Origin: Myxococcales bacterium
GTDB taxonomy: Bacteria > Myxococcota > UBA4151
Assembly (NCBI GenBank): GCA_002722845.1
Contig: PBND01000021.1
Coordinates: 1 to 45,726, forward strand
Direction of reading: 5' to 3'
DNA length: 45,726 bases
Below, piece by piece: positions 7,952 through 32,522 of this stretch. Position 1 is the stretch's first letter, and each line of letters starts with the position of its first letter. The notes under the pieces were generated by a model, which did no database searches, had not been told where the DNA came from, and saw nothing but the letters and a program-made list of their open reading frames with translations. The position numbers and the translations under genes are program-made.

Positions 7952-8054
7952 CCGGCTCCTTAAAAGGCAGGGCTAGCTAACCGGGGGCGAGTTCACCTGC
8001 AAGGCAAAGGCAGTGCTGTCCAAGCTGGCCTTCGAAGTGTACGGCTTAGCGGCG

Positions 8055-14244: not shown

Positions 14245-14702
14245 GACCTCCCGCCCTCTTCACCCAGCAGGTAAAGGGCGATCGGCCGACTCAAGACCAA
14301 ACCGGTCACGAGAAAGGAGGCAGAGGCAGCCAGGGACGGCAGATTGGGGGGCACCGCCGAGAGCAGGCTTAAGGCGAAGCTCGTGATGATGCCCAAAATG
14401 GTGATCGGCATCCCGGCAAAAAAACAGTCTGACCAGTCGGGGGGGCCCTGACGCATGACCTGGCGCAGCAGCAAGACGGCCAAGCCGCCCCCCATCGCCC
14501 AAGCCCCCGGCGGCAAACCGAAGGCCAGTTCACCGAAGCCGATGCAACAGGTCGCTCCCATCATTGCCGATGGGGCTTCTCGCAAGAAACTACAGGCGAT
14601 AGCACCGGCCAAGGGCAGTCCCAACCAAGGCTCCAGTTGGAAACTCCCCAACAAAAAACACAGGGCAAATACCCCCGTCCAAAGCAGAACCAAGCGCTTC
14701 AA
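14235..14702 (-). CDS. mreD: Rod-shape determining protein MreD (divergent)
   Basis: This 155-residue protein has four to five hydrophobic segments. Sequence identity to MreD is not obvious, but the size, topology and position between mreC and mrdA make MreD by far the best call. It overlaps mreC by 4 nt and mrdA by 10 nt. MreD helps couple MreB filaments to the periplasmic elongation enzymes. The Gly/Ala/Leu-rich segment PLAGAIACSFLREAPSAMMG contains a charged pair that may be functionally important. Confidence 0.8.
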   Translation of the reverse strand: MKRLVLLWTGVFALCFLLGSFQLEPWLGLPLAGAIACSFLREAPSAMMGATCCIGFGELAFGLPPGAWAMGGGLAVLLLRQVMRQGPPDWSDCFFAGMPITILGIITSFALSLLSAVPPNLPSLAASASFLVTGLVLSRPIALYLLGEEGGRSWT

Positions 14703-15553
14703 GGCACCTGACCTAGGACCCGCGGCGGGACGGGACGAAAGCCCTGGAAGGGGCGTGGGTCGGTGGCCACCATGAGGAGATCCGCCTCTCGGGGATGGCG
14801 GATGGGCTCAACACCAACGAGAAGGCGCCCCTCCCCTGGCTCCATTTCAAGCCAGATTACCCGGCCGATGGGCAAGCCTTCGGGCAGGGGGCTTTCCAGG
14901 GAACGTGTGACCAGCATCTCCCCCTGTTCTGGGGGCGTCGAGGGATCGGCGCCAATGCAGACCAAACCGCCGCTCCCGTCGCCATGAATCATCCCAATAC
15001 TGCCACTGCGGGCCCCTTCGAAGCCGACGGCGCTGCGCGGGTGGGTCAAGGGCATGACCTCGGAACTGCCAACGGTGACCTGGCGAATACGACCGAGAAC
15101 ACCCCGGTCGTCGACCACCAAGTCGCCGACTCGCACACCATGGTCCCGACCGACACTGGCCACCAGGCGGGGGAAATCTTCACCGATTCCCGCGAAGACG
15201 ATCTCGCCGCTTACCCAGGCCACGGCCGGCGATGCTTGTTTGAGTTGTAATAGCCTCTCGAGCCGGTCAGAGCGCCGGAGCCTCGCCTTCAGGCGCATGA
15301 GATCCAGGCGCAGACGGCGGTTTTCCTGCCAGGTATCGTACGCATCTTGACGGGCGGTGGCTAAGCTCCGGCGTTCGGCCCACCAGTCGGCGACCATCGC
15401 ATGGGACCAGTGCAAACCCTTCGCAATCGGCCCCGTGACCACAAGGACGATGCGATCAAGCGGGCCCGGCTGCTCGGCTCGAACATGGGCCAAATACACC
15501 ACTGGCCAGGCAAGGATCAGGAAGCCCAAAATCACCCAGGAGCGAGTCTTCAA
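14699..15553 (-). CDS. mreC: Rod-shape determining protein MreC
   Basis: This 284-residue protein has one N-terminal membrane helix, a coiled-coil (residues about 60-100, with RLRLDLMRLKARLRRSDRLERLLQL) and a beta-rich periplasmic domain containing VVDDRGVLGRI and LTHPRSAVG, which are typical of MreC. MreC forms periplasmic assemblies that activate PBP2-RodA. It overlaps mreB and mreD by 4 nt each. Confidence 0.93.
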   Translation of the reverse strand: MKTRSWVILGFLILAWPVVYLAHVRAEQPGPLDRIVLVVTGPIAKGLHWSHAMVADWWAERRSLATARQDAYDTWQENRRLRLDLMRLKARLRRSDRLERLLQLKQASPAVAWVSGEIVFAGIGEDFPRLVASVGRDHGVRVGDLVVDDRGVLGRIRQVTVGSSEVMPLTHPRSAVGFEGARSGSIGMIHGDGSGGLVCIGADPSTPPEQGEMLVTRSLESPLPEGLPIGRVIWLEMEPGEGRLLVGVEPIRHPREADLLMVATDPRPFQGFRPVPPRVLGQVP

Positions 15554-16560
15554 AGGGCCGCCCGTCGGTCCAGTTGCTCTGCGAATTCAATGAATCTACC
15601 GGCCCCCTCCACAACGCATGTGTGGGGGTTTTCCGCCCGGAAAACCGGCAGGTCAGTCCGCTCTCGGAGCGCGGTGTCCAAGCCTTGAAGTAGCGAGCCC
15701 CCACCGGCCAGCACGATGCCCCGATCAAGAAGGTCCGCGCTCAACTCCGGCGGGGTTTCCGCCAAGGTCTCAGCGACCGCGGCACAGATGCGCTCGATGA
15801 CCGGACCTAATGCCGCTGCCGCCTCAAGACTACTGATGGAGGCGCTCCGAGGAATGCCGGTCAGAGCGCAGCGCCCCCGAACATCGAGGACACCACTAGG
15901 GGGGTCGGGAATGGCCCAGCCGACCTCTTTTTTTAGCCGCTCGGCGCTGGCCGGTCCAATGATGAGATCATGGTGACCCCGAACGTATTCGATCAAAGCC
16001 CGATCCATTGCATCGCCGGCCCAGTTCAGGCTCGTCGACACCGCGATGTCCCCAAGGGTGATCACGGCGATATCCGTGGTCCCGCCGCCAATATCCACCA
16101 CCATCGATGCGCCGGCCATGGCCACGGGGAGCCCGGCGCCAATGGCCGCTGCCAAGGGTTCTTCGATGAGATACACGTTGCCCGCACCAGCAGCCTTCGT
16201 GGTCGAGACCATGGCCCGCTCCACCAACTGACTGATACGAGCAGGAATGCACACGGCAACGCGGGGCCGCCCAATCCAGAGGCCGCGACGGATTTGGCCG
16301 ACCAAGTTTTTGAGTAACTCCAAAGCCAAGGAGTCATCGGCGATCACGCCATCTTGAATGGGGCGCATGGCCGTAATCCCACTGGGTGTCCGGCCCAGCA
16401 TCCGATAGGCCTCCGCGCCGACGCTGAGGACCCGGCGTCTTCCCTGGCTGTCCGTCCCCACGGCAACAACCGATGGCTCTTGGATCACAACCCCTTCACC
16501 CTTGACCCAAACCAGGGTGTTCGCAGTGCCGAGATCAATGGCGATATCTGGTGCTCTCAC
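15550..16560 (-). CDS. mreB: Actin-like cell-shape protein MreB
   Basis: MreB polymerises on the inner membrane and organises elongation. The 336-residue product has the actin-fold nucleotide motifs: IDLGTANTLV (phosphate 1), EEPLAAAIGAG, MVVDIGGGTTDIAVI (phosphate 2) and LAGGGSLLQGLD (adenosine). I choose the GTG at 16560, not the longer frame start at 16638. The GTG overlaps the preceding kinase stop as GTGA and has GAGGAG six bases upstream, and the extra 26 residues would not resemble MreB. With this start the protein begins four residues before the first beta-strand, so the N-terminal amphipathic helix found in many Gram-negative MreBs is missing; membrane attachment may rely on the hydrophobic loop alone. 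Confidence 0.95.
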   Translation of the reverse strand: MRAPDIAIDLGTANTLVWVKGEGVVIQEPSVVAVGTDSQGRRRVLSVGAEAYRMLGRTPSGITAMRPIQDGVIADDSLALELLKNLVGQIRRGLWIGRPRVAVCIPARISQLVERAMVSTTKAAGAGNVYLIEEPLAAAIGAGLPVAMAGASMVVDIGGGTTDIAVITLGDIAVSTSLNWAGDAMDRALIEYVRGHHDLIIGPASAERLKKEVGWAIPDPPSGVLDVRGRCALTGIPRSASISSLEAAAALGPVIERICAAVAETLAETPPELSADLLDRGIVLAGGGSLLQGLDTALRERTDLPVFRAENPHTCVVEGAGRFIEFAEQLDRRAAL

Positions 16561-17876
16561 GCCGACTCCTCGGGCTTGGTAAAGCCCAACCGATCCCTTG
16601 CAAGATTCATGGCTAAGTGACGTGCATCCACCCGGCAACGCCCAGTATGTAAAAGTCCCCGCAGGCCAACCAGTACCCGTAGATACACCAGCGCCTCAGG
16701 AGGCGGTACCATTCGGGCGAACTCAAGGTTCTCTAAAAGGAAGCCTTGAACCCCTTCGCGCAAAGGCCATTGGGCGAAGTCAAAAGGACCTTCGTGAAGA
16801 AATGGTGTCAGGCCCACCTCGCCAAAAGCCCGCAGAACGTCTGGGCGTTGTTTCACCTGGCCACGGCCAAAGCCCAAATCCGAGTAAAGCTGGGGCAAAT
16901 CATCGTAGCGCTCCTCCCAAGTGGCGACGAGCAACTTCAGAAAGCCGTCGGTCATGGCCGGCTCAAACCGCCGCACGCAACCGAAATCCAAAAGCCCCAG
17001 GCGGCCATCCTCTAAGTATATAAAGTTGCCTGGATGGGTATCGCCATGAACGAACTGATGCAGGTGAAAGCTACCGCTCCACGTGAGCACCAGGGTTTCA
17101 CCGATCCGATCCCGCTCTTCCTGCGTCATGGTCTCGAAGGCATCGAGCAAGGGTATCCCATCCAATTGCTCCATGGCGAGGACTCGGTCGGTTGTGAGTT
17201 CCGGAATGCCCTTGGGAACCACCAGGTCGGGAATAAAGGCCAGCAGTTCCGCTCCCGCCTCAAGGTTCTTTAGTTCCTCAAGATAATCGCTTTCGAGAAG
17301 GAAGCGCTCGCGGAGCTCCTCCACATAGGCTCCAGCCTGCTTGCGGATGTTTGCCACGGGGTTGATGGACAAGAGGCGCTTCAAGTGGCCGAGGTCGGCT
17401 TCGAGACTGTCCCGCACGCCCGGATACTGAACCTTCAAAGCCACCCGGCGACCGTCATGGAGTCGCCCCTTGTGCACTTGACCCAAGCTGGCAGCCCCTA
17501 AAGGCTCCGCCTCGATCTCAGCGAATAAATCCAGCCGCTCAGGCCCCCAGTCCTCTTCCAGAATTTGCTGAACCTTTGAAAAGGGCATGGGCGGCGCTTG
17601 GCGCTGCAAGACGGTGAGCGCTTTGGCCATCTCCGGCGGCAACAACTCGGGATCCGACGAGAGGATTTGCCCCAGTTTCATGGCGGCACCTTTGAGATCG
17701 CCTAAAGCCGCGGCCATCTCCTGACCGGCCCGCAGTAAACGCTGGCGCCGCGCTTCTTCTTTTGCCCCCTGAGCGCGAAAACCATCGAGAAGAAGGTCAC
17801 CCACGTAGCGCCCTGAGGCGCCAAGCGCTGAACTTCCCATCCGCCGCAAACGCGACCACCCCTTCTTCTCGACCAA
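16557..17876 (-). CDS. ABC1/UbiB-family atypical kinase-like protein
   Basis: This 439-residue protein has the signature features of the ABC1/ADCK/UbiB family. These are the KxGQ motif (AAMKLGQ) with PPEMAKAL following, an invariant-Lys strand (VALKVQYPGV), the catalytic-loop equivalent HGDTHPGNF and the metal-binding LLDFG. In ubiquinone pathways UbiB-type ATPases assist membrane-bound lipid intermediates. No ubiquinone or other quinone gene is nearby. It is the first gene of the mreB-mreC-mreD-mrdA-rodA unit and overlaps mreB by 4 nt, which is unusual. There is no C-terminal membrane anchor of the UbiB type visible. A role in handling a polyprenyl lipid for the elongasome is speculation. 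Confidence 0.9.
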   Translation of the reverse strand: MVEKKGWSRLRRMGSSALGASGRYVGDLLLDGFRAQGAKEEARRQRLLRAGQEMAAALGDLKGAAMKLGQILSSDPELLPPEMAKALTVLQRQAPPMPFSKVQQILEEDWGPERLDLFAEIEAEPLGAASLGQVHKGRLHDGRRVALKVQYPGVRDSLEADLGHLKRLLSINPVANIRKQAGAYVEELRERFLLESDYLEELKNLEAGAELLAFIPDLVVPKGIPELTTDRVLAMEQLDGIPLLDAFETMTQEERDRIGETLVLTWSGSFHLHQFVHGDTHPGNFIYLEDGRLGLLDFGCVRRFEPAMTDGFLKLLVATWEERYDDLPQLYSDLGFGRGQVKQRPDVLRAFGEVGLTPFLHEGPFDFAQWPLREGVQGFLLENLEFARMVPPPEALVYLRVLVGLRGLLHTGRCRVDARHLAMNLARDRLGFTKPEESA

Positions 17877-17988: not shown

Positions 17989-19110
17989 ATGGGCCTGACC
18001 TCATTGATCCTCGCCAGTTCTCTTGCTGCCCCTTTAAGGGATTGCGACACCGCTCCCTGCTACCCAACAGCCTACGTGGATCAAGGCAATCGGGACTGGG
18101 CCTGCCGAGGGCTCACTTTTGCAAACCACTCCGGATCCGATTTTGGCATCGGTGGGTTTGAGGAAATGGATCGAGGGCGTGCTGTTTATGCGGCCGCCGG
18201 TGGCCAAATCATCCAAGTGGAAGACGGTCACTTCGATCGCTGCGTCAGTGGTCAGTGCGAAGGTGGCGATGGCTACGGCAACCATATCATCATCGATCAT
18301 GGCGACGGCCGACAGAGCCTCTATGCCCATCTGCGAAATGGATCGGTGGTCGTGGAAGTCGGTGAGCCAGTGGACTGTGGCGCGGCCATCGGCCTGGTCG
18401 GTAGCTCAGGCTTTTCCACTGGGGCCCACCTTCATTTTGAGTGGCGGGTGGATGGAGCGTCCATCGACCCCTTCGCCGGCCCCTGTGGCGAGCCAAATAC
18501 CGCTTGGGTCGAACAAGGCCCTCACGGTGCCCTGCCCGCCCGTCTTTGTGCAGGCGAGGGGCCGGCTGCGGGAGAAGACAACAGCCGAATCCTTGAAGAA
18601 CCCGCGCCGGGGGAAATCGTCGCCGCTCGCGGCACCGAGGTCTCTTATTGTTGGCGCGTTGAAAATAGCGGCTCACGAACCTGGGAGCCAGAGATGGTCA
18701 ATGGGGTGCTCGTCAGTGGCGAGCGCCTGGGCCAGGCTGGAACCTTGGGCCTCTCAGAGACCGTCTTACCGGGCGCTTCGACTCAGGTTTGCGCTGAACT
18801 CACAATGGATGCGCCGGCCGGTGAGCGGAGCCGGGCGAGTTGGCGTCTGGCCCGGGCGGGCAGTGTCTTTGGCGCCATGCTGATCCTGCGCGTCGACGTG
18901 GTGGAACCAAGAGATGCCGGCCCAACCACTGCCGACGGAGGGTCCTTCCAGCCTGATCCGGATGGAGGTGTTCTGCCTCGACCCGATGGGGGCGATCATC
19001 CTGATCACCCGACGGGGTGCGGCTGTGTGGCCGCTAGCCCCCTCAACCTCTGGTTGCTCTTGCTCTTCTTTGTCGGCCGGCGGCCCTATCGAGCGGGGAC
19101 GCTGAACTGA
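17989..19110 (+). CDS. M23 (LytM-type) endopeptidase with NBR1-like domain and MYXO-CTERM tail
   Basis: The 373-residue secreted protein has a weak N-terminal signal (MGLTSLILASSLAAP) and a LytM/M23 metallopeptidase domain. Zinc ligands are H47 and D51 (HSGSD) and H149 in HLHFE, with H114 in YAHL and H147 as further active-site residues, so it should be an active peptidoglycan cross-bridge hydrolase. Residues about 200-300 resemble the Ig-like domain next to BRCA1 (VSYCWRVENSGSRTWEP, then SRASWRLARAGSVFG). A DGG/PDG-rich linker leads to GCGCVAAS, a hydrophobic helix and RR, a MYXO-CTERM-like signal. It is transcribed divergently from the elongasome operon, which fits a role in wall remodelling. 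Its 3' end overlaps the convergent gene by 25 bp. Confidence 0.85.
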   Translation: MGLTSLILASSLAAPLRDCDTAPCYPTAYVDQGNRDWACRGLTFANHSGSDFGIGGFEEMDRGRAVYAAAGGQIIQVEDGHFDRCVSGQCEGGDGYGNHIIIDHGDGRQSLYAHLRNGSVVVEVGEPVDCGAAIGLVGSSGFSTGAHLHFEWRVDGASIDPFAGPCGEPNTAWVEQGPHGALPARLCAGEGPAAGEDNSRILEEPAPGEIVAARGTEVSYCWRVENSGSRTWEPEMVNGVLVSGERLGQAGTLGLSETVLPGASTQVCAELTMDAPAGERSRASWRLARAGSVFGAMLILRVDVVEPRDAGPTTADGGSFQPDPDGGVLPRPDGGDHPDHPTGCGCVAASPLNLWLLLLFFVGRRPYRAGTLN

Positions 19111-20147
19111 GCCATGATTCCCCCATCGGCGGGGGAGATCAATTGCACCTCGATGACCTGCTGGCCGCGCCGTGTGAGAATCGTACCGGTCAACACCGCA
19201 TCGGTCTTCTTCGCCATGCGCTTCTTTCGCCCGTCACTCATGTCGGCAAACTTTTTGATCGGTTGTTTTTTGGCGACCGTGCAACCCGCAGCGCCGGATT
19301 TGAGTTGGTCGATCACCTGCTTGGCAGCCTTTCGGCCGTCGAGGCCGCTGGCGCCCCGACTGGTGAACTCAGCCACCGAGATCCGCAAGGGCCCTGGGCG
19401 TACAGGCTGTCCCTTTTTCGCGCCACCAAAGGTGTCGCCCAGGTGGGTATAACTGCCCTTCGAACTGCTGGCTTTGACCTCGTACACTTCGATCTCGCCG
19501 ACGGCGTCACCGCCCTTCATCACCTGGAGTTTGCTCCCCTCACCAATGCCGTGGCCTCGCCCTAAGGAGACCGTGATCTCACCAGCGATATGGGCCGTGA
19601 TGCGCCCCCGGACACTGTTTCGTGGAGCACAGGCATGGCGATTCAATTGATGGAAAAGCCGAACGCCAAACTTTGGATCAAGCTCTACGGCTGCTTTGGC
19701 ATCGCCACTGAGTTTTCCCGCCAGACCTTCGAGGAGTTCCTCAAGTAAATCCGGGTTACTCCAGCTCACCCGCTCGGCATGAACGGTGGCAGCCGTATCC
19801 ACATCGACCAGGCGAACATTCAAAATGCGCTTCGAGCCCAACCGCCCAACACTACCAACGAGAAAATAAGCCGCGTGGGCGTAGGCAGCGAGGTCGATAA
19901 AATCGTCATCGCTGGCCGTCACCATCTGCAACTGCTTCTCTTCCATCATTTGGGCCATATGGTTCCGGTCGAGGACTTTATATTTGCCCTTCTGGCTCAG
20001 CATCGTGCCCAACGTGTCGCCGATCTCGTCACCATCCCCTTGGGTGAGACCACCGCCCACCTTGAGGGGCATCAAAGCCAAGGTCTCCTGCTCGGCCATC
20101 GCTGGGCCGGCCACGAGAAGACTCGCAGCAATCGTCAGACGGAACAT
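19086..20147 (-). CDS. Periplasmic CsgG/FlgT-like protein (last gene of ring-module cluster)
   Basis: The 353-residue protein has a cleavable signal (SLLVAGPAMA before E20). The N-terminal half resembles the CsgG/FlgO fold: an initial LALMPLKVGGG strand, DEIGDTLGTMLSQKGKYKVLDRNHM, and then YFLVGSVGRLGSKRILNVRLVDVDTA. Residues about 180-236 resemble the FlgT C-terminal domain (GEITVSLGRGHGIGEGSKLQVMKGG). In Vibrio, FlgT, FlgO and FlgP build the outer-membrane ring around the flagellum; CsgG is the curli secretion pore. Here no flagellar or curli gene is close. It follows a lipoprotein gene with a TGATG overlap and ends tail-to-tail with the M23 gene. Fold-level resemblance only; precise function unknown. 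Confidence 0.7.
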   Translation of the reverse strand: MFRLTIAASLLVAGPAMAEQETLALMPLKVGGGLTQGDGDEIGDTLGTMLSQKGKYKVLDRNHMAQMMEEKQLQMVTASDDDFIDLAAYAHAAYFLVGSVGRLGSKRILNVRLVDVDTAATVHAERVSWSNPDLLEELLEGLAGKLSGDAKAAVELDPKFGVRLFHQLNRHACAPRNSVRGRITAHIAGEITVSLGRGHGIGEGSKLQVMKGGDAVGEIEVYEVKASSSKGSYTHLGDTFGGAKKGQPVRPGPLRISVAEFTSRGASGLDGRKAAKQVIDQLKSGAAGCTVAKKQPIKKFADMSDGRKKRMAKKTDAVLTGTILTRRGQQVIEVQLISPADGGIMAQFSVPAR

Positions 20148-21010
20148 CAGTTCTCCTTCTTTGCCTCTGGCGGCTTATCGGACTCCGGAGGCGTCTTTTT
20201 ATTCGGCGCCTTTGGGCCAATATCGGTTGGTTTCGACCGGCGCTTGATCAAGGGCCGCTTGGCTTTGCCTTTTTGCTCACTGGATTTGGAGGCATTCCCT
20301 GGGGAATCCTTGCTGGTCTTCGGTCCAGGGTTCGGGGGCGCTGACTTGGCATTCGCGGCCTCTGGCTCATCCCTCACGGCGGGCCCGACTGCGGGCTCGG
20401 AAGCCCCTAACTCCAGATCGGGTTCTCCATCCTCTTTGTCCTCTTTGGACTCCGCGGCCAAGAGATCACCTTTCGCCTCGATGACGTGGGTTAGGGGCAG
20501 CGCCTGGCGCATCTCGTCGGGAACCTGAGCCCACTTCAGTTGCATCCAGTCCGGCGCCCTTGGGGTAAAAACCGTGCCGTCCCCCATCCGGCCAGGGAGG
20601 GCCTCTAGGACGGAATCGAGCCGCTCGTCCCCATGCAGCGCCCTACGAATCACCTTGTCCACATCTTCCCATCGTAACTGGACCCGGCTGAAGTGGCTGC
20701 CGTCGGCCGGGTCCACCCAGCGGTCGCTCACCGATGCGACCAGGGCGACCTGAACATAGAGTTCCTTCGCTAGATCCGGCCCCAATGGCGTCAGGGCAGG
20801 GGCCAGCCAGGCGTCGAGTGCACCAGCGAGTTGGGAGGCGGCCATCATATCAGCCCCAGCGATGCCTTCCGCTGCGGGGGCCTCACCGATCGCGACCACG
20901 CCCCGCTTCGCAATGGCCGTCTCCCCGCTCACCCAATCCGGGGCGGGAGCCGGCAAGTAGGCACAAGCGATGCCAAGAAAACCGCCAAGACCGAGGGTTA
21001 GCCATCGCAT
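20147..21010 (-). CDS. Lipoprotein with degenerate LPP20-like domain and Lys/Pro-rich tail
   Basis: The start is set at the ATG at 21010, because a perfect AAGGAGGT lies nine bases upstream; the in-frame GTG at 21016 would leave only three. The 287-residue product has a lipobox (FLGIAC, C16). PDWVSGETAIAKRGVVAIGEAP followed by a helix resembles the beginning of LPP20 domains, but the match is weak. From about residue 185 the chain turns into a low-complexity tail of Lys, Pro, Glu and Ser ending KKEN, probably disordered and perhaps binding peptidoglycan or DNA-like polyanions; that is a guess. It is coupled to the CsgG/FlgT-like gene by TGATG. Confidence 0.65.
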   Translation of the reverse strand: MRWLTLGLGGFLGIACAYLPAPAPDWVSGETAIAKRGVVAIGEAPAAEGIAGADMMAASQLAGALDAWLAPALTPLGPDLAKELYVQVALVASVSDRWVDPADGSHFSRVQLRWEDVDKVIRRALHGDERLDSVLEALPGRMGDGTVFTPRAPDWMQLKWAQVPDEMRQALPLTHVIEAKGDLLAAESKEDKEDGEPDLELGASEPAVGPAVRDEPEAANAKSAPPNPGPKTSKDSPGNASKSSEQKGKAKRPLIKRRSKPTDIGPKAPNKKTPPESDKPPEAKKEN

Positions 21011-21071
21011 CAGCACGACACCTCCTTGCCCAGAGCCTAGCCCAGGGGGCCACCGCTGCCCAGGAAAGGGG

Positions 21072-21527
21072 TCACGGTTTCGGATAAGAATAGAGAAAGT
21101 AGTAAACTCGCCCCTCTTTGCCGGACCATCTTCCGTGGGGGTCGATCCACTCCGCCTCCTGCTTCATTCCCTCGAGCACCGACTTAAAGAGTCGGCTGCT
21201 TTCACTCCGATCGACAGCAAAGTGCCGCTGAATGCCCTCCTTCGATGTCTGATCGGAGCGGGTCACACGGGTGGAGATATCGACGCCAGCGACAGACACG
21301 GTCCCCAGCATGCTCGCCAGGTCACGGGCAGCCCGGTCCTGAGCGATTTTGCGGGCATCGCCCGGCATGCCGGTCGGACCGCCATAGCCCACCACCCAGA
21401 GTCGACTCTCGTCCTGAACGGGCGGCTCACCCGTGGCTTTCCACTGACTCAGCCACGGTGGCGGCTCCGGAACAGGTGGCGTGTGAGCACAGGCCAAAAA
21501 GAGAAGGGATGCGGTGAAACACCGCAT
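21072..21527 (-). CDS. Small LPP20-like lipoprotein
   Basis: The ATG at 21527 gives a lipoprotein signal (MRCFTASLLFLAC, C13) and 151 residues. A longer in-frame start at 21587 lies inside the preceding gene and would place 20 non-signal residues in front, so it is disfavoured. The body has the LPP20 pattern: PPPWLSQW, then LWVVGYGGPTGMPGDARKIAQDRAARDLASMLG, a Gly-rich beta-strand followed by a helix with repeated Ala. The start codon lies inside a perfect 11-bp hairpin (21506-21530) followed by a U-rich run, so expression is likely to be controlled at translation or by attenuation. Confidence 0.7.
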   Translation of the reverse strand: MRCFTASLLFLACAHTPPVPEPPPWLSQWKATGEPPVQDESRLWVVGYGGPTGMPGDARKIAQDRAARDLASMLGTVSVAGVDISTRVTRSDQTSKEGIQRHFAVDRSESSRLFKSVLEGMKQEAEWIDPHGRWSGKEGRVYYFLYSYPKP

Positions 21528-21530
21528 CCC
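21506..21530 (-). promoter_or_regulatory. Hairpin enclosing a start codon, followed by a U-rich tract
   Basis: On the minus strand GGGATGCGGTG, loop TTT and CACCGCATCCC form a perfect 11-bp stem, followed by TTCTCTTTTT. The ATG of the small LPP20-like gene (21527-21525) is inside the 5' arm, and the G-rich part of its ribosome site borders the arm. It could terminate readthrough from the upstream LPP20 gene, sequester the start, or both. Confidence 0.6.
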
Positions 21531-21564
21531 CCTCTTTAGCAGAATCCAACTCAAGGGAACGCTC

Positions 21565-22113
21565 TTAGTTCCCACGAGCCTTTTCAAGTTCCGAATTCAG
21601 GTCATCGAAGTTGCTCTCGGCCCGGGCTCGGATTTGGGCTGCAGCCCGCTTATCCAGGTCGTTCATCTTCTCCAGGTTGTCGCCGAAGGCGTCCAGATTC
21701 AGATAGGCCAGCGAGTAGAGCGTGCCATCTTTGTCTTCCCAGTGATTGATGATGTTCACGCCCACCAACTTCACATCCACCAAACTCTTGGTGATGTCGG
21801 CCGTATAGGCTTCGACGTTTTCTGCCTCGGTATCGGTCACGCTCTCGCGGGAGCTCTTGTAGAGGTTGGTCACGTGCTTACCGAAGATGGCAGCCATCTC
21901 CTTGAAGGCCTCATTATGGGACTGAGTCCGCCGCATGATCTTATCTTTGGAGGTGCCGATCCCGACGGCATAAAATCCCTTGCCGTTGGGTGCATCATAG
22001 GCACCACCCCCACGATGGACCCAGGCGGGGGTTCCGCTGGTGGCCGGTGTGGAGGCACAAGCCATGATCATACCGGCCGCAGCCATAACGGTAAGTGTCT
22101 TCGCAATTCGCAT
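21565..22113 (-). CDS. LPP20/FlgP-family lipoprotein
   Basis: This 182-residue lipoprotein (lipobox MIMAC, C19) is the clearest LPP20-type member of the cluster. TPAWVHRGG and GKGFYAVGIGTSKDKIMRRTQSHNEAFKEMA give the expected Trp-containing entry, Gly-rich strand and Ala-rich helix; it then has VKLVGVNIINHWEDKDGTLYSLAYLNLD and a charged helical end. FlgP, a member of this family, forms a multimeric outer-membrane ring around flagella. The upstream 134-bp gap holds an exact CRP-type palindrome (22197-22212), and AAAGGA precedes the ATG, so this gene may head its own transcript. Confidence 0.83.
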   Translation of the reverse strand: MRIAKTLTVMAAAGMIMACASTPATSGTPAWVHRGGGAYDAPNGKGFYAVGIGTSKDKIMRRTQSHNEAFKEMAAIFGKHVTNLYKSSRESVTDTEAENVEAYTADITKSLVDVKLVGVNIINHWEDKDGTLYSLAYLNLDAFGDNLEKMNDLDKRAAAQIRARAESNFDDLNSELEKARGN

Positions 22114-22194
22114 GTCGTCTTCCTTTCAATAGCCCGACGGGCTGGTCAAAGTTGGGGCTGAGACGAATATCCCCTGTTCCTATTCAATCCATCC

Positions 22195-22214
22195 ACTGTG
22201 ACGTGGTTCACAGT
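22195..22214. promoter_or_regulatory. CRP-type operator: TGTGA-N6-TCACA
   Basis: ACTGTGA, six bases CGTGGT and TCACAGT form a perfect 7-bp inverted repeat whose core (22197-22212) is identical to the E. coli CRP consensus TGTGA-N6-TCACA. It is centred about 91 bp upstream of the LPP20 lipoprotein start on the minus strand, in a non-coding gap. Binding by a CRP/FNR-family protein is inference. Confidence 0.6.
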
Positions 22215-22247
22215 CTTCCTAATGCCTCCATGACAGGCCGACAACCC

Positions 22248-23768
22248 TCAGCGAGAGAGCGCCTGACGCAAGGCCTTCACCAAGCGCTTCCCCACACGCT
22301 TCTCGGCCTGTTCCGTGGCCGAGTCATCGTCGGTTTGCGTCCCCCGCCCGCTTGCGTCGAGTTGGGCCCGCTGGGCTCCCTGCTTGCGTACCGTCAACTG
22401 GGCCCTCACTTTACAGGTCCTGCGCATGCTCAGGTCCTTACAGGTCGCCTCGCCGATGGATAATTCGAGTTCCCAAGCCGCACTTGAATCATCGACCAGG
22501 TCCATACCCAGCTTCTTGGAGAGTCCTTCACGCAGAGCACTCGGCGGCTCACTGCCGGAAAGGCGAACTCGAATCGGCTGCAGATTCAAGGTCATCTGTA
22601 GTCGCAGCCGCGCCACCACACCGGGATGCTTCAGCCGCAACCAACTGTTCTCCCCCTGATCCACGCCCGCAAGCGTTGCCATATCGACGGCGACAACAAC
22701 CTTCGGACGGCGGCCCCAGATTCGCCAGTCTTTCACATGGGCCGTCCCAGCACGGGTCGTGACCAAGTGACTGGGCGACCGGGGCCCCATACGAAGTTTA
22801 AAGCGAACCGGCACGCCGTCCACCGGGCCACCATCGCTGGTGACCTCCGCACTGATCGTCAGCGCCGTTCCCACGGGAGCGGAACCCGGATCCGCCGCAG
22901 ACAACTGGAGGCCTGCTCCAGCTCGAGCGACGAGGTCATTGACCAGGGCCTCTGCCGGCCGGCCCGCGATCTGGAAGGGCACACCGAAGAGATTTCGCAG
23001 GGCGAGGCTGGCCCGCAGACCATGCCCCAAGGCTTTCACCGAATCCCCAGCGGCCAAAGCTTTCTCCGCAGCCTGGACCTGATCGAGCACCACGTCTTGG
23101 AGGGCTGCAAGTTGAGCGGCGATCTTCGCCTCCAGCTCCGCTTTATTGAAACGGCCCAGCACATAGGCATTTTGCTCGTCACTGTACTGATCATGAATCT
23201 CAGCACCCTCTAAGGAGGCATCCACGTGGGCCCGAATGGCCTCATCATAGTTACTTGCGAGGTTTTCACCGGCCTGATCGGTGTAGCTGCTGCGGAAGCT
23301 GTCCGCGACAGACTCCACATGGACCTTCAATTGGGAGCCGATGGCCGCGAAAGCTCGATCGCGAGCCTGGATCCGAGCCTCACCTTCATCGCTCTCGATA
23401 TTGGCCATGCCCATGCCATAGATATAGGTCCCATCAGCGGCCGGCACCTGCATGATCCAGGCAGGCTTCCCCCTTGGCTTTGCAGGTTCTGCAGCCGGCG
23501 CTGGGTCCGGCTTGGTACGGATCGGCGCGGGTGCTGCGGCCTCTTTACGGGGACGAAGCGTCGTCAAATTCGGGGGGTTTTCTTCGATATCCCGAACCCG
23601 CTCCTCTTTCGTCTTCATCTTTCGGCGCTTCTCGAGGTCGAGAAAATTGGCACCCGCCCGGGCCTTGATTCGGTCCCGCTTGGCCTTTGAGAGTCGTTTC
23701 GGCCCTGTTTTCGGCGGTGGCGTGCTCACACAGCCCGCCATCGCCAACAGCAACAATCCCCGTTTCAT
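22248..23768 (-). CDS. Multidomain LPP20-type lipoprotein
   Basis: The 506-residue lipoprotein (LAMAGC lipobox, C13) has a basic helical linker up to about residue 95. An LPP20-like domain at about 100-216 follows (KPAWIMQVPAADGTYIYGMGMANI, then EARIQARDRAFAAIGSQL), then a helical segment (QVQAAEKALAAGDSVKALGHGL). An Ig-like domain lies at about 295-360 (VGTALTISAEVTSDGG), and a C-terminal alpha/beta domain containing MRRTCKVRAQLTVRKQG completes it. GAGGAG precedes the ATG by eight bases. A G/C hairpin lies between it and the upstream 611-residue gene. The LPP20 part suggests ring formation and the Ig part a partner contact; both are inference. Confidence 0.75.
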   Translation of the reverse strand: MKRGLLLLAMAGCVSTPPPKTGPKRLSKAKRDRIKARAGANFLDLEKRRKMKTKEERVRDIEENPPNLTTLRPRKEAAAPAPIRTKPDPAPAAEPAKPRGKPAWIMQVPAADGTYIYGMGMANIESDEGEARIQARDRAFAAIGSQLKVHVESVADSFRSSYTDQAGENLASNYDEAIRAHVDASLEGAEIHDQYSDEQNAYVLGRFNKAELEAKIAAQLAALQDVVLDQVQAAEKALAAGDSVKALGHGLRASLALRNLFGVPFQIAGRPAEALVNDLVARAGAGLQLSAADPGSAPVGTALTISAEVTSDGGPVDGVPVRFKLRMGPRSPSHLVTTRAGTAHVKDWRIWGRRPKVVVAVDMATLAGVDQGENSWLRLKHPGVVARLRLQMTLNLQPIRVRLSGSEPPSALREGLSKKLGMDLVDDSSAAWELELSIGEATCKDLSMRRTCKVRAQLTVRKQGAQRAQLDASGRGTQTDDDSATEQAEKRVGKRLVKALRQALSR

Positions 23769-23787
23769 CCGCTCATCTCCTCGTCAC

Positions 23788-23807
23788 GGGGGGATGGACG
23801 TCCCCCC
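23788..23807 (-). other. Intercistronic G/C hairpin in the ring-module cluster
   Basis: GGGGGGA, a 6-nt loop and TCCCCCC form a perfect 7-bp stem in the 54-bp gap between two minus-strand genes, just ahead of the ribosome site of the 506-residue lipoprotein. There is no U-tract. It may stabilise or process the mRNA and set different levels for the genes on each side. Confidence 0.5.
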
Positions 23808-23822
23808 CGGCCAGACATTCAG

Positions 23823-25658
23823 CTAGTAGTTAAAGATCAACCCGCCCATGAGGGTAGGTAAGCCTGCTTGAAGGCCGGCTCGCCCGTGGATGCCGGCCCA
23901 GCCGGAACCGAGGAAGTAGTCCGCAAAAATATGCGTACCCGGGTGAAGATCTTCTGAGCCCGCATTGACGCCCACATCGAACTGAGCGCCGAAACCCAAG
24001 GCGCCACTGTGCCAGCGCTTTTTGAGGCCAAGGGCACCAAAGCCGGCGAAATCGCCAAGGTCGGCGCTGTAGTTCGTACCAAAGTCTCCCACAAACCAGA
24101 GCTCACTCAAGGCAGAGCTGTTGAATGCGAAGCCTAAACTCTTCGCAAAGCCAAAGGTGACCCCCATGCCACCGGCGATGATGAAGTTCCCACCGTTATC
24201 CCGGTGATCCTCAAGCATCTGATGCCCGAGATCACCCCGGCCGGCGATGAGTTCAGCTTCGGAGCTAACGTCCCGCTTCATACCGTCTTTGCCCGGCTTG
24301 TTATTGGCCACTTTGCGAACCCGAGAGTAGCCGATCTTCTGGCGCTTCATGGCCGTGTTGTATTCAGCCACATAAAAGCCCTGGTCGACGCGAATACCTT
24401 CCCGGCTTCCCAGACCGAAACCAAGGCGGTCACCCACTTTGGAGTTGATGGGCGCCAGCAAGCGGAAGGGCTCAAGGCCTCTCATCTGCTGTTGAACGCT
24501 GCCACCGATACTTGAGGCGGCGCCGCGACAGGCATCACGCAAACGCCGCTGTTGGCTGTTGCCGCTGGCCCGGAGCTTGGCAAAATGCTTCTTGTAAGGG
24601 GGCGCGTGCCGGAGGTGGTGGAAATCAAACTTGGCGCTCAGGCGACACTGCCATTCCGGGTGATAGGGCTTACGGGCGCTCTTGTTGTCCTCACTCGATG
24701 GAAACATACACCGGGCCGGATACTGGGGCTTACTGGGTGCACGCTGTCCCTTTTGGGGATTCTTCTGCCAGGCCTCATACTTTGCCTGCTGCGCCTGAAA
24801 ACGATCCCGTTCCCGTTTCCGCTTCTGCAACCACTGCCCCGCCTTCATCCAGTCGGTTTCACCGGGGACTCGGACTTCGGACTGTCGACTCACTCGACCA
24901 TTCTTGATGAGACCTTCGAGATTGCTGGCCCGCTCACTACGCCACGAGTCGAAACTCTGGCGAACATGAATGCGCTGATTGTTACCGTCGTTTCGAGGCC
25001 GCTTCGAATCGGGAATATCGCAGACAAGGACCCGCTTCACCCCGGCGCCGGTCAAGGTGGGCTGGTAGAAGAAAGCCGAGTTCATGACCCGCTCGAGGTC
25101 CCGACCTTTGATATCGAACTCCTTATACTTCACGTTGAAGTCCGCTTCCGCCTTCGCCTTGTCCATCTTCGAGGCCTTCATGTAGTCGCTGAATGCCTTT
25201 AGATTCTTTTGGTTCGGAGGCACCCCGTAGGGCATATCGACAAAGTCAAAGCGCACCATGCGGGTGGCCCGGCCGATGGCCTTGCCCACCATTTGATTCA
25301 TGGCTTCGAGGGTCCAGGCACCACCAGGAAACCTCTGGCCATAAAATTTGAACCACCTCACCACATGCCAGCCTGGCTTATCCCAGACGGTCTCCGGCGC
25401 GAAGTAGAGCAAGGTCTTGCGACGGTAAGTGGCCGCGCTCTTGTCCTCCTGGCTCATCGCATCTTTGTCCGCGGTCGTCGCGTCCCGATGGTCCACTTTC
25501 GGCGCGGAGGGATCGGCCGCATCGCTAGGCGCCGTCGGACTGGCCGTGGGTCCCGTCGTACTGTCTGCTGCAGTGCCGCCTTCTTTATAATGACTATCCT
25601 GGGCGAGCCCAGGGGCTGCGATGAGGCAAACCGAAAAGAGAATCAGAGATTTCTTCAC
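23823..25658 (-). CDS. Outer-membrane protein with FlgT-C-like domain and C-terminal barrel-like region
   Basis: The start is GTG at 25658, with GAGGAG six bases upstream inside the preceding gene. The 611-residue product has a cleavable signal (LIAAPGLAQ), a Thr/Ser/Ala/Asp-rich linker, and a large basic central part with aromatic clusters (YRRKTLLYFAPETVWDKPGW). Residues about 405-453 read like the FlgT C-terminal SH3-like domain (KVGDRLGFGLGSREGIRV, then GYSRVRKV). The last 140 residues are Gly- and aromatic-rich alternating strands (GMGVTFGFAKSLGFAF) ending GGLIFNY, as expected of an outer-membrane barrel or anchor. It follows the first gene after 3 bp. I know of no described family with this combination. 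Confidence 0.68.
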   Translation of the reverse strand: MKKSLILFSVCLIAAPGLAQDSHYKEGGTAADSTTGPTASPTAPSDAADPSAPKVDHRDATTADKDAMSQEDKSAATYRRKTLLYFAPETVWDKPGWHVVRWFKFYGQRFPGGAWTLEAMNQMVGKAIGRATRMVRFDFVDMPYGVPPNQKNLKAFSDYMKASKMDKAKAEADFNVKYKEFDIKGRDLERVMNSAFFYQPTLTGAGVKRVLVCDIPDSKRPRNDGNNQRIHVRQSFDSWRSERASNLEGLIKNGRVSRQSEVRVPGETDWMKAGQWLQKRKRERDRFQAQQAKYEAWQKNPQKGQRAPSKPQYPARCMFPSSEDNKSARKPYHPEWQCRLSAKFDFHHLRHAPPYKKHFAKLRASGNSQQRRLRDACRGAASSIGGSVQQQMRGLEPFRLLAPINSKVGDRLGFGLGSREGIRVDQGFYVAEYNTAMKRQKIGYSRVRKVANNKPGKDGMKRDVSSEAELIAGRGDLGHQMLEDHRDNGGNFIIAGGMGVTFGFAKSLGFAFNSSALSELWFVGDFGTNYSADLGDFAGFGALGLKKRWHSGALGFGAQFDVGVNAGSEDLHPGTHIFADYFLGSGWAGIHGRAGLQAGLPTLMGGLIFNY

Positions 25659-25661
25659 CTC

Positions 25662-26819
25662 TTACTCCTCACAGGAAATGACGGCCATGGCGCCGCGACT
25701 GGTGGCCACTCGGCAACCCATGCCCTCCACCTGGCTTCCCAAGGAGAACATCAAACCACTGCTGTCGCCCTTCACCTTCACGATGAATTGCATGGTGCCA
25801 TCGGTGGCCAGCGTGTTCTTCGCTTTGCCCAAAGCCTTCATCTGCTGAAAGACTTGGTTCTTCGCCGCGCCACTGCTGAAGTCACCCCGCCAGGTAAAGA
25901 AGAAGTTTTTGCCCTTCTTCGCCTGCTTCTTCCACTTCTTCGTCATCATACCGATCACCTTATTGGCTGCATCGGAGATGGCTTCACTCATGGCCACTTG
26001 AGCCTGGCCCATGGGGCGAGTCGGGCTGTAACCAGTGGCATCAGCAAGAGCCCGGCCTGTGGTGGTTTCGTAGGCCCGGAGTTGGGATTCCACCTTCATG
26101 TTGCTGCCTTGGGTTTGAACCGTGGCGGCATAGGTGATGTAGACCTCAGCGCCGAGGGCCAGCGCCACCTGGGCTGCTTCGTCCTCATCATGACCTGCGA
26201 TCTCGCCAAGCTGACTCACAACTTCCTGCAAATCGCTGATGCCTGTCCGGTTCAGAACATCGAAGTCTCGTTCCTGAAGATACTCGTTGATGCGAGTCTC
26301 GGCGCTGGTTTGAAGCTTCGGGTTACGAAAGGACTTGGATGGCACTGCCACAATACTCGGATTACCGATCGCGTCGGCCACATCCTCGTCATCGGCGACC
26401 ATGCCCTTGGCTTGCAGGCTCTCACGAAGATTCGCCACGTTCACTTCCACCATGGCCGTGTAGGTCACCCGGTTTGCGTCGAGGCGCTTGCTCCCAAGCA
26501 TCTTCTTTTCGGTGGCGAAGCTGTGGGGGTCGATACCGGCAAAGAAGCCTTCACGCATGCCCATGTAGCGCTTCTTCTCATCGGGGCCGTTGGCAATCTT
26601 CTCTTTGATCGCCGCGTCGATGGCCACCTTCATCGAATCCATCTTGGCATTACCACCATCGGCGCCAATGCCGACGGTCTTGTAGGTCACCCGACCCACG
26701 TCTCCGCTTTCGTAAAACTGGGCATCCACCCCCACGGGGTGAGGCGGGTTCGGAACCACCGCCGGAGCGCAAGCGAGCGGCCCGACAAAGAAGAGTGACA
26801 ACAACAGATGCTTATTCAT
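25662..26819 (-). CDS. Lipoprotein with FlgO/CsgG-like region (DUF6175-like), first gene of cluster
   Basis: The 385-residue protein has a lipoprotein-like signal ending PLACAP (C17). Residues about 25-130 have the strand-helix pattern of LPP20/FlgT N-terminal domains (VTYKTVGIGADGG and a long helix rich in Ala/Lys). Residues about 215-290 resemble CsgG/FlgO-type domains (ALALGAEVYITYAATV, then LRAYETTTGRALADATG, then an Ala-rich helix). A C-terminal domain carries three Cys near the end. The overall layout recalls proteins annotated DUF6175; this is from memory. AAGGAG precedes the ATG. The 113-bp gap upstream should hold the cluster promoter, but I see no convincing -35/-10 pair. Confidence 0.7.
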   Translation of the reverse strand: MNKHLLLSLFFVGPLACAPAVVPNPPHPVGVDAQFYESGDVGRVTYKTVGIGADGGNAKMDSMKVAIDAAIKEKIANGPDEKKRYMGMREGFFAGIDPHSFATEKKMLGSKRLDANRVTYTAMVEVNVANLRESLQAKGMVADDEDVADAIGNPSIVAVPSKSFRNPKLQTSAETRINEYLQERDFDVLNRTGISDLQEVVSQLGEIAGHDEDEAAQVALALGAEVYITYAATVQTQGSNMKVESQLRAYETTTGRALADATGYSPTRPMGQAQVAMSEAISDAANKVIGMMTKKWKKQAKKGKNFFFTWRGDFSSGAAKNQVFQQMKALGKAKNTLATDGTMQFIVKVKGDSSGLMFSLGSQVEGMGCRVATSRGAMAVISCEE

Positions 26820-27804: not shown

Positions 27805-28611
27805 CTACCTGTCGCGACAAAAACCCGAGTTAAACGTGGGAACACAGAATCTTCCACCGGCCCGGGGGCCCGTATCTTCGGGCCCGGGGGCATCACTCCC
27901 GATCCCCGCATCATCGAAGGGATCGGGCAGACCACTGTCATTATCACCGGGGCGCCCCCGATCATCGACTGGTGGTAGCCCCCCATCGAACTCGCCGCCG
28001 TCCAGGCCACCATCATGAGCCAGCCCTGTGTCTTCGATCACGCCGCTGTCATTGGGCAGGCCGCCATCGTTGGCCACACCCCCATCGTTGGCCACACCAC
28101 CATCGTTGGCCACACCACCATCGTTGGCCACACCGCCATCGTTGGCCACACCGCCATCGTTGGCCACACCGCCATCGTTGGCCACACCACCGTCGTTGGC
28201 CACACCACCGTCGTTGGCCACACCACCGTCGTTGGCCACACCACCGTCGTTGGCCACACCGCCGTCGTTGGCCGCACCACCGTCGTTGGCCGCACCACCG
28301 TCGTTGGCCGCACCACCGTCGTTCGCTGCGCCGCCATCGTCAGCCACGCCACCATCGTTGGCCACGCCGCCGTCGTTGGCCGCACCGCCATCGCTAGCCA
28401 CGCCACCATCGTTGGTCGCAGCACCGACATCAGCGGCTGGAGCAGGGGAATTTACCGCGGTGGCGCGGGGGCGATGACAGGTGCCTGCGTAACAAAACTG
28501 CCCGAGCGGACAATGGCTGTGCCGCATGCAGTTGATGACGACCTCGCCCGCCTCATCCTCGCCACCGCAGCCAGCAGCGCAGAGAACGGCGACAAAAAAC
28601 AGTGACCTCAT
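27805..28611 (-). CDS. Lipoprotein with twenty-unit [VA]ANDGG hexapeptide repeat
   Basis: The 268-residue lipoprotein has a lipobox (LCAAGC, C15) and a small Cys motif (CMRHSHCPLGQFCYAGTC) of the type frequent in Myxococcota surface lipoproteins. A 120-residue stretch of twenty hexapeptides follows, mostly VANDGG or AANDGG, encoded by 18-bp tandem DNA repeats. The tail is Asp/Gly/Pro-rich and ends with two Cys (FCVPTFNSGFCRDR). The repeat would be a flexible, acidic, possibly calcium-binding stalk that lifts the C-terminal end from the membrane. Its ATG overlaps the stop of the upstream barrel gene by 4 nt. Function unknown. Confidence 0.8.
   Translation of the reverse strand: MRSLFFVAVLCAAGCGGEDEAGEVVINCMRHSHCPLGQFCYAGTCHRPRATAVNSPAPAADVGAATNDGGVASDGGAANDGGVANDGGVADDGGAANDGGAANDGGAANDGGAANDGGVANDGGVANDGGVANDGGVANDGGVANDGGVANDGGVANDGGVANDGGVANDGGVANDGGVANDGGLPNDSGVIEDTGLAHDGGLDGGEFDGGLPPVDDRGRPGDNDSGLPDPFDDAGIGSDAPGPEDTGPRAGGRFCVPTFNSGFCRDR
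28063..28422. repeat. 18-bp tandem repeat, 20 copies
   Basis: Twenty consecutive 18-bp units span exactly 360 bp, with plus-strand consensus RCCRTCGTTGGCCRCACC. Units 1-11 encode VANDGG and 12-15 AANDGG; the remaining five are divergent. Units 1-7 carry CATC and units 8-15 CGTC, so the array has homogeneous blocks, as expected from recent slippage or unequal recombination. There are no unique spacers. Confidence 0.97.
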
Positions 28612-29166: not shown

Positions 29167-32100
29167 CTAGTAGTTCTTCGTGAACAACTCCACGTCCAGC
29201 GTCCATGAACGACGGTTGGCCTGGCTCAGATCACCATAGGTCCAACTCTCGAAATCGAAGTCTGGAATGTAGATGGCCTGCAATGCCCACAGATAGGCCC
29301 CCGGACCGGGCACCGGCGGCTGTTCCGGATTGCCAGTGATCGGCACATGGGGAAGGCGGAACTTCCGCTGATCACCGGGGACGACGAAGTCCCAGCGATG
29401 ATTGGTGACAAGGTTGATGATGATCACCTGATAGACCGTAGGTCGAACACCGGTTTCGGCGGGCTTCCAGCGAAAGTACCCACCCTCGAGCAGCCCATTG
29501 TTCACCGGCGAGGTGATTTCGGGGAACTGGAGAATGGGATCCAAGGTCACGCCAGAGTCGAGACGACCGACACCTTGCTTGAGGGTGACCGAGTAAGGAT
29601 AGCTGTAGATGAACTCACCAGCACAGGCATTGCCTTGCATGGTGGGAACACAGCTCTGCCCAGGCTCGCATTGCGCCGCCGACTCACAGGATGGTCCTGT
29701 GACGTTGTCCGGTTCCCATCGACGGGTAAACGAGCCGCCATAGAAGGTCATGAACTCACCGGGGAATGAGGGCAGTTCTTCCTGCACGATGATGTTGCTG
29801 TCACTGTCGGTATCACCCAGAGGATAGACACCCTCGCCACCAAAATCGATATAGGTCGTGACCCGCTTTTTATTGGGACCCAACTTACCTTCTAGCTGAC
29901 CCGGCGCATCGGGTAGACTGATATTGACGCTCTGCTCGAGGGGGTACTCGAGGTGAATATCGAGGCCGCTATGGATTTCACCGAGCACTGCGGTCACGCC
30001 GCGGCGAACACCTAACTGCCGCAGCTCCACGATCTCTTCCGTGCGGCTGTTGTAGATGCCGGCCCAGGCCAAAAGGGCGTAGCGACCGGGCATGGTGATA
30101 AAGTCGAAGGTTGCATGGTCAGCGAAGACCATGTCGTTGCCCTGGATCACGATGCAGTTGCCCGTGCCTCCCTGACAGGGCTGACCGCCTTCATCCACCG
30201 GAACTTCCCAAATGGTGGCCTTCGGAGTGGGGCTTGAGAATGCATTGCGTTGGGTCAACTGAATCTGGGCAAACGGCACTTCGTCAGGGCCCAAGGTGGC
30301 CGGGTCGAATACGGCCTTTGAAAAGCCACTCACCGTCCCCTGGAGGCGGGGATACAAGGCCGGGGGACGACCACCACCGCCACCGCCGGGCGATGGGGGC
30401 GCCGAGCAGTAGAGGATCAAGGTCACATCGGCGCCTTCAGACTCCACGACCGTGGCACTCGTGCACATGTTCTGCATCGCAGTCACCGTCTGAGGACCAT
30501 GGATATCGGGCCCACTCAGCGTGACTTGGCCGATGGCGTTTGTGTAGCCGAAGTATGGCGTATCCGATTCAAGCCCCAGATAGACCAGCGCCCCCGCTTG
30601 GGGAATCATTTGGCCCATCAGCACCCCGTACACGGTGACGTTGACGGATCCCTCCACATCACCACCATGGGAGCCGCCATTGATGAACGCAGGGTCGAAA
30701 TAGGTGAACGCCATCGGCAACACTTGGGATTCACCCCCAACGCTGATGGTCACATCCACGGTTCCCGGCAGGTTGGGCGGCGTGCGCAGGCTGACCGTAT
30801 TGTCATTGATCACTCGGACGTCGCTGGCAGCCCCCTGACCGACTTGAACGTTCACGGGACCTGCGCTGAAACCGGTCCCCGTCAACACGACATAGGTCCC
30901 ACCGGCCTGCGCCCCGCGATTGGGATGGAGTCCGTTGAGTCGTAATGGAGCCTCATAGGTGAATGCATTGGCCAAGCGGGCCCGCTCTAGCCCCCGCTCA
31001 ACCCGCAACTCCACGGGACCGCCTGCGCCTGGAGGCGTGGTGAAGATGAGGGCATTGCCATCCTGGGTGATCCCTTCGAGCTCCTGGCCTCCGAGCCATG
31101 CTCGCAGCCCCTCACCAAATCCAACACCCTCAACACGGACTTCGGTACCGCCCTCGACGGGCCCCCGACGGGGGTTGAGATTATGGACCGCTAGGGGTGT
31201 TACATACTGAAAGGCACCGGCGCGCTCGGCAAAGCCGGCCGCCGTCTCCACCCGCAGGTCAACAGTTCCTTCGCTACCCTGCGGGGTCGTCACGAGAAGG
31301 CGGTCGCCATCGACCACCAAGTCGGTGGCCTCAACACCACCGAGGAGGACTCGCTGGGGGTCGTCGGTCACCCCGCTGCCGTAGATCGCGAGGCGGGTGC
31401 CGCCCTGAACGGGGCCCCGATCCGGCGCCGACCCGTGGATGGCGAGTGCATCACCAGCGGCTGTGTAGACGAAGGCTGCGGGCCGCTCATAGGCTCCTGT
31501 CGCATCGGTGGCAGTGACCGCGACCGGTCCAACTTCGGCACCGGCCGGCACCGTGCATTCCAAGCGACCGGCATCGATGACCTGCAGATCACCACATTCA
31601 TTGGCGCCAACCTGCACGGTCACCCCGTCGTGAAATCCTTCACCGAGAATTGTGACCGTATAGCCACCGGCAAGATCACCACCACTGGGCTGAGCTTCGT
31701 TCACTCGGAGCGGGGCGTAGTAACGGAAGGCCAGGGGCAGCACCTTGCGTCCGAAGGCGTTGATCACCTCCACGTCAACTTCACCGGGGCTCGCGGCCGG
31801 CGGCACGATACCGGTCATTTCGTTGGCATCGATTCGCTGGATCCCGCGCACCGCTGCGCCACCGATGAGCACCGCTGTCTCATCGCTAAACCCATCGCCA
31901 AGAAGACGGACTTCACTGCCGCCAAGGTAGCTCCCCGAGCCCGGCTCTACGGAGTGAAGCTCAAGAGGGTCGTAATAGGTAAATGCGCCCTCGACCGTCG
32001 CACTGCCGAGACTGTTTTGCACCACGATATCCGCTGGACCTGGGGTCCCCGGCGGGGTGCGGAAGGTGATAATTCGCTCGTTGGTCAGCAGCATATCTAA

Positions 32101-32388: not shown

Positions 32389-32401
32389 CGGCCCTCCGCG
32401 C

Positions 32402-32457
32402 CCGCTCGCGAGCGGAACTAATGGCTGTGGGAGCAACCTAGCACCTCCGTGAGGTGC
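32402..32457. other. Two inverted repeats in the divergent TIG/dapD gap
   Basis: CCGCTCGCGAGCGG (32402-32415) is a perfect 14-bp palindrome 14 bp ahead of the TIG gene start. GCACCTC-CGT-GAGGTGC (32441-32457) is a 7-bp hairpin. Both lie in a 134-bp divergent intergenic region that must contain promoters for both directions. They are operator or leader-structure candidates. Confidence 0.45.
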
Positions 32458-32522
32458 CGGCAAAGGCCCTCCGCTTGGCAATGGTCCGGCGACGGGGCAA
32501 GGGGAAGAACAGGAGCCAATCG

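Follow-up and report, generated by a model that had tools for sequence, protein, structure and literature searches.

FlgO, FlgP and FlgT are parts of flagellar rings. In a stretch of Myxococcales DNA (the window, 45,726 nucleotides), a first-pass annotation had described seven neighbouring genes for exported proteins with modules resembling these, and had proposed that their products build an independent outer-membrane ring, a secretion pore or a stator-like assembly. The question raised by this locus is whether such modules serve an outer-membrane assembly that is independent of the flagellum.

The window corresponds to contig C21 in a draft assembly (G000) of 2.68 Mb and approximately 70% completeness. 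The cluster consists of seven minus-strand ORFs that fill positions 19086-26819 with intergenic gaps of -1 to 134 nucleotides, which agrees with the close spacing on one strand reported earlier. On the minus strand, the order of transcription is g7-g6-g5-g4-g3-g2-g1:

g7, 25662..26819, minus strand: DUF6175 lipoprotein of 385 aa, opening the cluster
g6, 23823..25658, minus strand: exported protein of 611 aa with a likely outer-membrane beta-barrel at its C-terminus
g5, 22248..23768, minus strand: lipoprotein of 506 aa with an LPP20 domain, an Ig-like (Big_1) region and a C-terminal domain
g4, 21565..22113, minus strand: small LPP20 lipoprotein of 182 aa, the proposed major subunit
Terminator-like hairpin, 21504..21532, minus strand: 3′ of g4 and overlapping the g3 start codon, with a 13-pair stem and a T-rich tail
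g3, 21072..21527, minus strand: small LPP20-like lipoprotein of approximately 151 aa, counted from an internal ATG
g2, 20147..21016, minus strand: lipoprotein of 289 aa with a charged, Pro/Lys-rich tail
g1, 19086..20147, minus strand: periplasmic non-lipoprotein of the FlgO/CsgG/LpoB superfamily, 353 aa

The start of g3 should be placed at the internal ATG near position 21527 rather than at the ORF-opening TTG at 21587. All seven products had been credited with a signal peptide and five had been called lipoproteins, and inspection of the N-termini bears this out: g2, g3, g4, g5 and g7 have a lipobox-like cysteine, while g1 and g6 have ordinary-looking signal peptides and no lipobox.

On one side of the cluster, a rod-shape operon (10877-16638, minus strand) encodes MreB, MreC, a small protein in the MreD position, PBP2 and RodA; an M23 peptidase gene (17989-19110, plus strand) and an ABC1-type kinase gene lie between this operon and the cluster. 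Further away, large ORFs at 580-6688 and 8013-10516 (both plus strand) encode proteins of 505, 1215, 324, 542 and 292 aa with no Pfam match at 1e-5. On the other side, a lipoprotein-like ORF (27805-28611, minus strand) contains a long ANDGGV-type repeat run that gives rise to long overlapping ORFs in other frames as well, and a protein of 1131 aa (29167-32562, minus strand) has six IPT/TIG domain matches.

Domains and folds of the cluster proteins

LPP20 was found above the Pfam cut-off in g4 (3.2e-8) and g5 (4.9e-7). All eight g5 orthologues match LPP20, and three of the eight match Big_1 weakly. g2, g3 and g6 of the window have no meaningful Pfam match; among the g3 orthologues, however, four of five members match LPP20 (best 7e-4), and hhalign aligned g4 with g3 at 2.9e-13 and with g5 at 1.6e-12. 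The earlier count of at least three products with LPP20-like modules therefore stands. In a tree of the LPP20 domains, g3, g4 and g5 fall into three separate clades (98/98, 94/60 and 100/99), each of which contains members from more than one family; the branches are long, so relations between the groups are unsure. The separate multi-family clades suggest that these subunits have long been kept apart, as different components of a single assembly would be.

The AF2 model of g4, built with 24 homologues (pLDDT 75, pTM 0.64), contains two strands, a long helix, a second helix, two strands and C-terminal helices. Its top Foldseek matches are Lpp20 and Tip-alpha of Helicobacter pylori (prob 0.92-1.00, E 0.003-0.03), the best being Lpp20 5ok8 (prob 1.00, E 3e-3). 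TM-scores to these proteins are modest (0.3-0.5), and the match is thus support at the family level and not in detail. The SHS2-like fold is common to FlgP, Lpp20 and FlgT, and FlgP builds disks with it on the side of the outer membrane (PMC12222027). Across this family, ring formation goes with an insert placed after the helix and before the second strand; in FlgP this insert is a beta-hairpin (PMC12222027). The corresponding insert of g4 is modelled as helical with moderate confidence and no beta-hairpin is predicted, so that g4 may or may not form rings. A hydrophobic-moment analysis of the LPP20 inserts was discarded because it had mislabelled a modelled helix as a strand.

g1 matches FlgO (PF17680) in Pfam at 1.8e-8 (34.7 bits against a cut-off of 22.6) and CsgG at 3.4e-5, the latter only over positions 37-101 of the 210 in the profile; the two matches span only approximately 65-86 residues. 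Its orthologues match CsgG (best 2.9e-15) and LpoB (5/5, best 4.9e-7) instead of FlgO, and the g1 profile matches the LpoB structure 4q6l at 0.0018. The comparison with the folds of FlgO, FlgP, FlgT and CsgG, proposed earlier, has a split outcome: g1 matches the FlgO/LpoB/CsgG superfamily, and g4 resembles Lpp20 and Tip-alpha (SHS2-like) rather than FlgP or FlgT. CsgG/FlgO parts had been assigned to two proteins; the assignment holds for g1 but was not confirmed for a second protein, as g7 and g1 profiles were related with a probability of only 0.7% and comparison of g6 and of g5 with g1 found nothing. FlgT_C domains, also claimed for two proteins, were not supported (g1, E=0.1; g6, none), and at E<=0.01 neither G000 nor the second family described below has a match. 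The idea that g7 and g6 share FlgO or FlgT_C domains with g1 found no support, the profile comparisons with g1 being blank.

g7 belongs to DUF6175 (PF19672, E=1.9e-11). At E<=0.001, this family was found in seven of 195 genomes of the phylum, every one a carrier of the cluster. In every complete locus g7 is followed by g6, which is a probable outer-membrane barrel according to several indications. Its AF2 model (10 sequences) has an overall pLDDT of 40.5 and was not taken to a fold search; strands are predicted at residues 490-610 with low confidence (pLDDT approximately 55-63 for 521-580). Outer-membrane barrels often terminate in an aromatic residue, and F or Y is the last residue of most g6 orthologues. 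One family member additionally matches OMP_b-brl at 0.0014. These observations favour the barrel-like end that the first-pass annotation had seen in one product. g6 is tandemly duplicated in G020 (L022:6804-10081). For g2, which has no Pfam family, hhalign gave a short and weak match to g4 (prob 56%). Profile searches of the PDB with alignments of g7, g4, g5 and g6 returned no meaningful match.

Conservation of the cluster and the terminator after g4

The nearest relative with the cluster, G001, belongs to the same family and keeps g7-g6-g5-g4-g3 in unchanged order on a contig of 5.4 kb. In f4, a second family of the Myxococcota, the genes form two divergent arms: g7-g6-g5 are read in one direction, and the genes for a small lipoprotein, g1, g4 and g3 in the other; g7 and g1 are back to back wherever the contigs allow (G005, G020, G030, G034, G038 and G041). 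The small lipoprotein has a weak likeness to the g4 profile (about 5e-5 to 8e-5). It is a possible counterpart of g2; the alignment of the two is unconvincing. The set is retained in f4 although the order was rearranged, which strongly indicates a joint function of these genes, and the expectation that they stay together across genomes is thereby confirmed for the core set. This argues for a conserved functional unit of exported proteins, comprising three LPP20-type lipoproteins of separate lineages, a periplasmic protein of the FlgO/LpoB superfamily, a DUF6175 lipoprotein and a probable barrel.

Strong matches to g5 were restricted to the window family and f4 (9 of 195 genomes of the phylum). 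In a non-exhaustive scan of a genome collection with g5, all matches were Myxococcota-type MAGs; every carrier found is a MAG and none is cultured. A plasmid search with g5 and g7 gave no match. The g4 family is more widespread (54/195 Myxococcota genomes): g4 and g3 lie beside a g1-type gene in G007 and G004, and G090 and several f23-family genomes have related arrangements with g1-type genes. Genes for trypsin-like proteases lie close to g4 in three genomes (G004, G037 and G013) and immediately upstream of g7 in G026 (L077, L079, L136 and L017). No paper describing the cluster was found in the open-licence literature, where DUF6175, LPP20 with CsgG and Myxococcota LPP20 were covered.

Of the terminator-like sites in the cluster, the best (21532-21504) lies directly 3′ of g4, over the start codon of g3. 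A comparable hairpin follows g4 at all nine g4-g3 junctions examined in the two families (window, G001, G005, G014, G020, G026, G034, G038 and G041), where its folding energy ranges from -19.5 to -35.4 kcal/mol. Four genomes of other families (G007, G013, G024 and G090) have such a hairpin as well; it is absent at seven other g4 homologues of the sample. Among 22 control junctions 3′ of g1, g3 and g6, only one has an equally stable structure. In a scan for exact stems, a score of 18 was reached by four of 4000 random windows and exceeded by seven of the nine g4 junctions; strong stems were also detected after g5 in two of nine genomes and after g7 in one of eight. A terminator between g4 and the downstream genes suggests overproduction of g4, as would suit a repeated or major subunit, and predicts from sequence that g4 is more abundant than the downstream products. 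Since the hairpin was noticed only after the cluster had been viewed, this is a prediction and not a passed test. In f4 the terminator could simply end the transcript or separate two units, and g3 may have its own promoter there.

Flagella and alternative explanations

We hold with middling confidence, and on the strength of sequence comparisons, that the cluster encodes a flagellum-independent, outer-membrane-anchored lipoprotein assembly. The corresponding earlier proposal is well supported: the set is kept together across genomes, including some that have no flagella. The main competing explanation is that they encode an accessory ring of the organism's own flagellar motor, like FlgO, FlgP and FlgT in Vibrio, although the flagellum is encoded elsewhere in the genome; we consider this doubtful. 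Flagellar genes were not recognised among the window ORFs scanned, which agrees with the first-pass annotation as far as the window goes, but other contigs of the genome carry two flagellin-type and two FlhA-type genes, so that their absence from the window is weak evidence on its own. No LPP20 match of the window genome lies outside the cluster, which would also suit a flagellar ring. Using flagellin as the marker for flagella (FHIPEP alone was dropped because it also counts type III secretion), we found both g4 family and flagellin in 21 of the 195 genomes, g4 only in 33 and flagellin only in 30, a weak positive association when relatedness is ignored (Fisher p=0.017). Against the flagellar ring, 33 of the 54 g4-family carriers are without flagellin; 23 of these reach a completeness of at least 90%, and FHIPEP is lacking as well in 14 of them. 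The full cluster itself is present without flagellin in six of eight f4 genomes (G014, G020, G026, G034, G038 and G041; completeness 90-100%), two of which (G014 and G026) have no FlhA/SctV (FHIPEP) gene whatsoever. The occurrence outside flagellated genomes anticipated earlier is thereby borne out. Among the partly scanned neighbours of the examined loci, no flagellar gene was noticed.

The LpoB matches of g1 and its orthologues, together with the M23 peptidase gene and the mreB-mreC-(mreD position)-PBP2-rodA operon that adjoin the cluster in the window, would fit a regulator of cell-wall synthesis, in which g1 would reach through the peptidoglycan to activate a synthase and the lipoproteins would serve as outer-membrane anchors. 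However, Mre-type neighbours were not noticed beside the f4 clusters or at other loci, g1 is no lipoprotein as LpoB is, and most of the genes have no counterpart in cell-wall systems; from the sequences, we regard such a role as unlikely. A CsgG-like secretion pore with dedicated partners, another of the first-pass proposals, draws on the CsgG matches of g1 and its orthologues and on the barrel protein in the set, but is weakened to the point of being quite improbable by the partial alignment of the window g1 to CsgG, by its missing lipobox, by the absence of CsgF from all 16 genomes searched (an E. coli control was positive) and by the lack of an evident substrate. The suggestion of a stator-like assembly found no support, as Pfam recognised no motor-type gene among those genes of the window that were scanned. 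LPP20 and CsgG-type genes are each common in the phylum, and a loose chance grouping of lipoproteins might be considered; the co-occurrence that survived rearrangement in the second family and the g4-g3-g1 neighbourhoods elsewhere make it very improbable.

Proposed assembly and comparison with known systems

For the flagellum-independent lipoprotein assembly, we infer localisation, stoichiometry and function of the products from their sequences. The lipoproteins would sit at the outer membrane, facing the periplasm, where g4 in excess might assemble into an oligomer or a layer of repeated units. Present in fewer copies, the variants g3, g5 and possibly g2 would cap or connect this layer, g1 would bridge the assembly towards the periplasm, and g6 would be its membrane anchor. 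The product may close into a ring, form a patch or act as a scaffold that surrounds another machine. A more specific version, in which Myxococcota have a flagellum-independent outer-membrane ring or disk machine made from the SHS2/LPP20 and FlgO-type modules that flagellar H-rings and basal disks also use, with g4 as the high-copy ring subunit, is tentative and on present evidence somewhat unlikely. If it is true, it would suggest that flagella and this machine recruited the same outer-membrane ring kit. The conservation of related modules in bacteria without flagella suggests a wider envelope role for FlgO/FlgP/FlgT-type modules and raises the question whether a system of this kind was the source of the outer-membrane rings of flagella. 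The g4 terminator leads to the simple prediction that one subunit far exceeds the others.

Several known systems share features with the cluster. The N-terminal domain of g1 is like LpoB and CsgG; unlike these, g1 is not a lipoprotein and has an extra C-terminal half, and CsgF is absent. Helicobacter Lpp20, with Tip-alpha, is the best fold match of g4 (5ok8), but g4 belongs to a multi-gene set and sequence profiles do not convincingly reach these proteins. The H-ring of Vibrio resembles the cluster in that a FlgO-superfamily protein is encoded together with exported proteins of the LPP20/SHS2 type. In contrast to the H-ring, the cluster has no flagellar context, is found in genomes without flagella, has no FlgT_C match, contains several LPP20 paralogues and adds a barrel and a DUF6175 protein. 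The basal disk of Campylobacter is built from FlgP, with the HtrA-derived PflC beneath it. The ring-forming beta-hairpin of FlgP was not predicted for g4, and the window cluster has no trypsin-like gene. However, g4 is likewise a small outer-membrane lipoprotein of the LPP20 family and likely a repeated unit, and the trypsin-like proteases adjoining g4 in G004, G013 and G037 are reminiscent of PflC under the FlgP disk.
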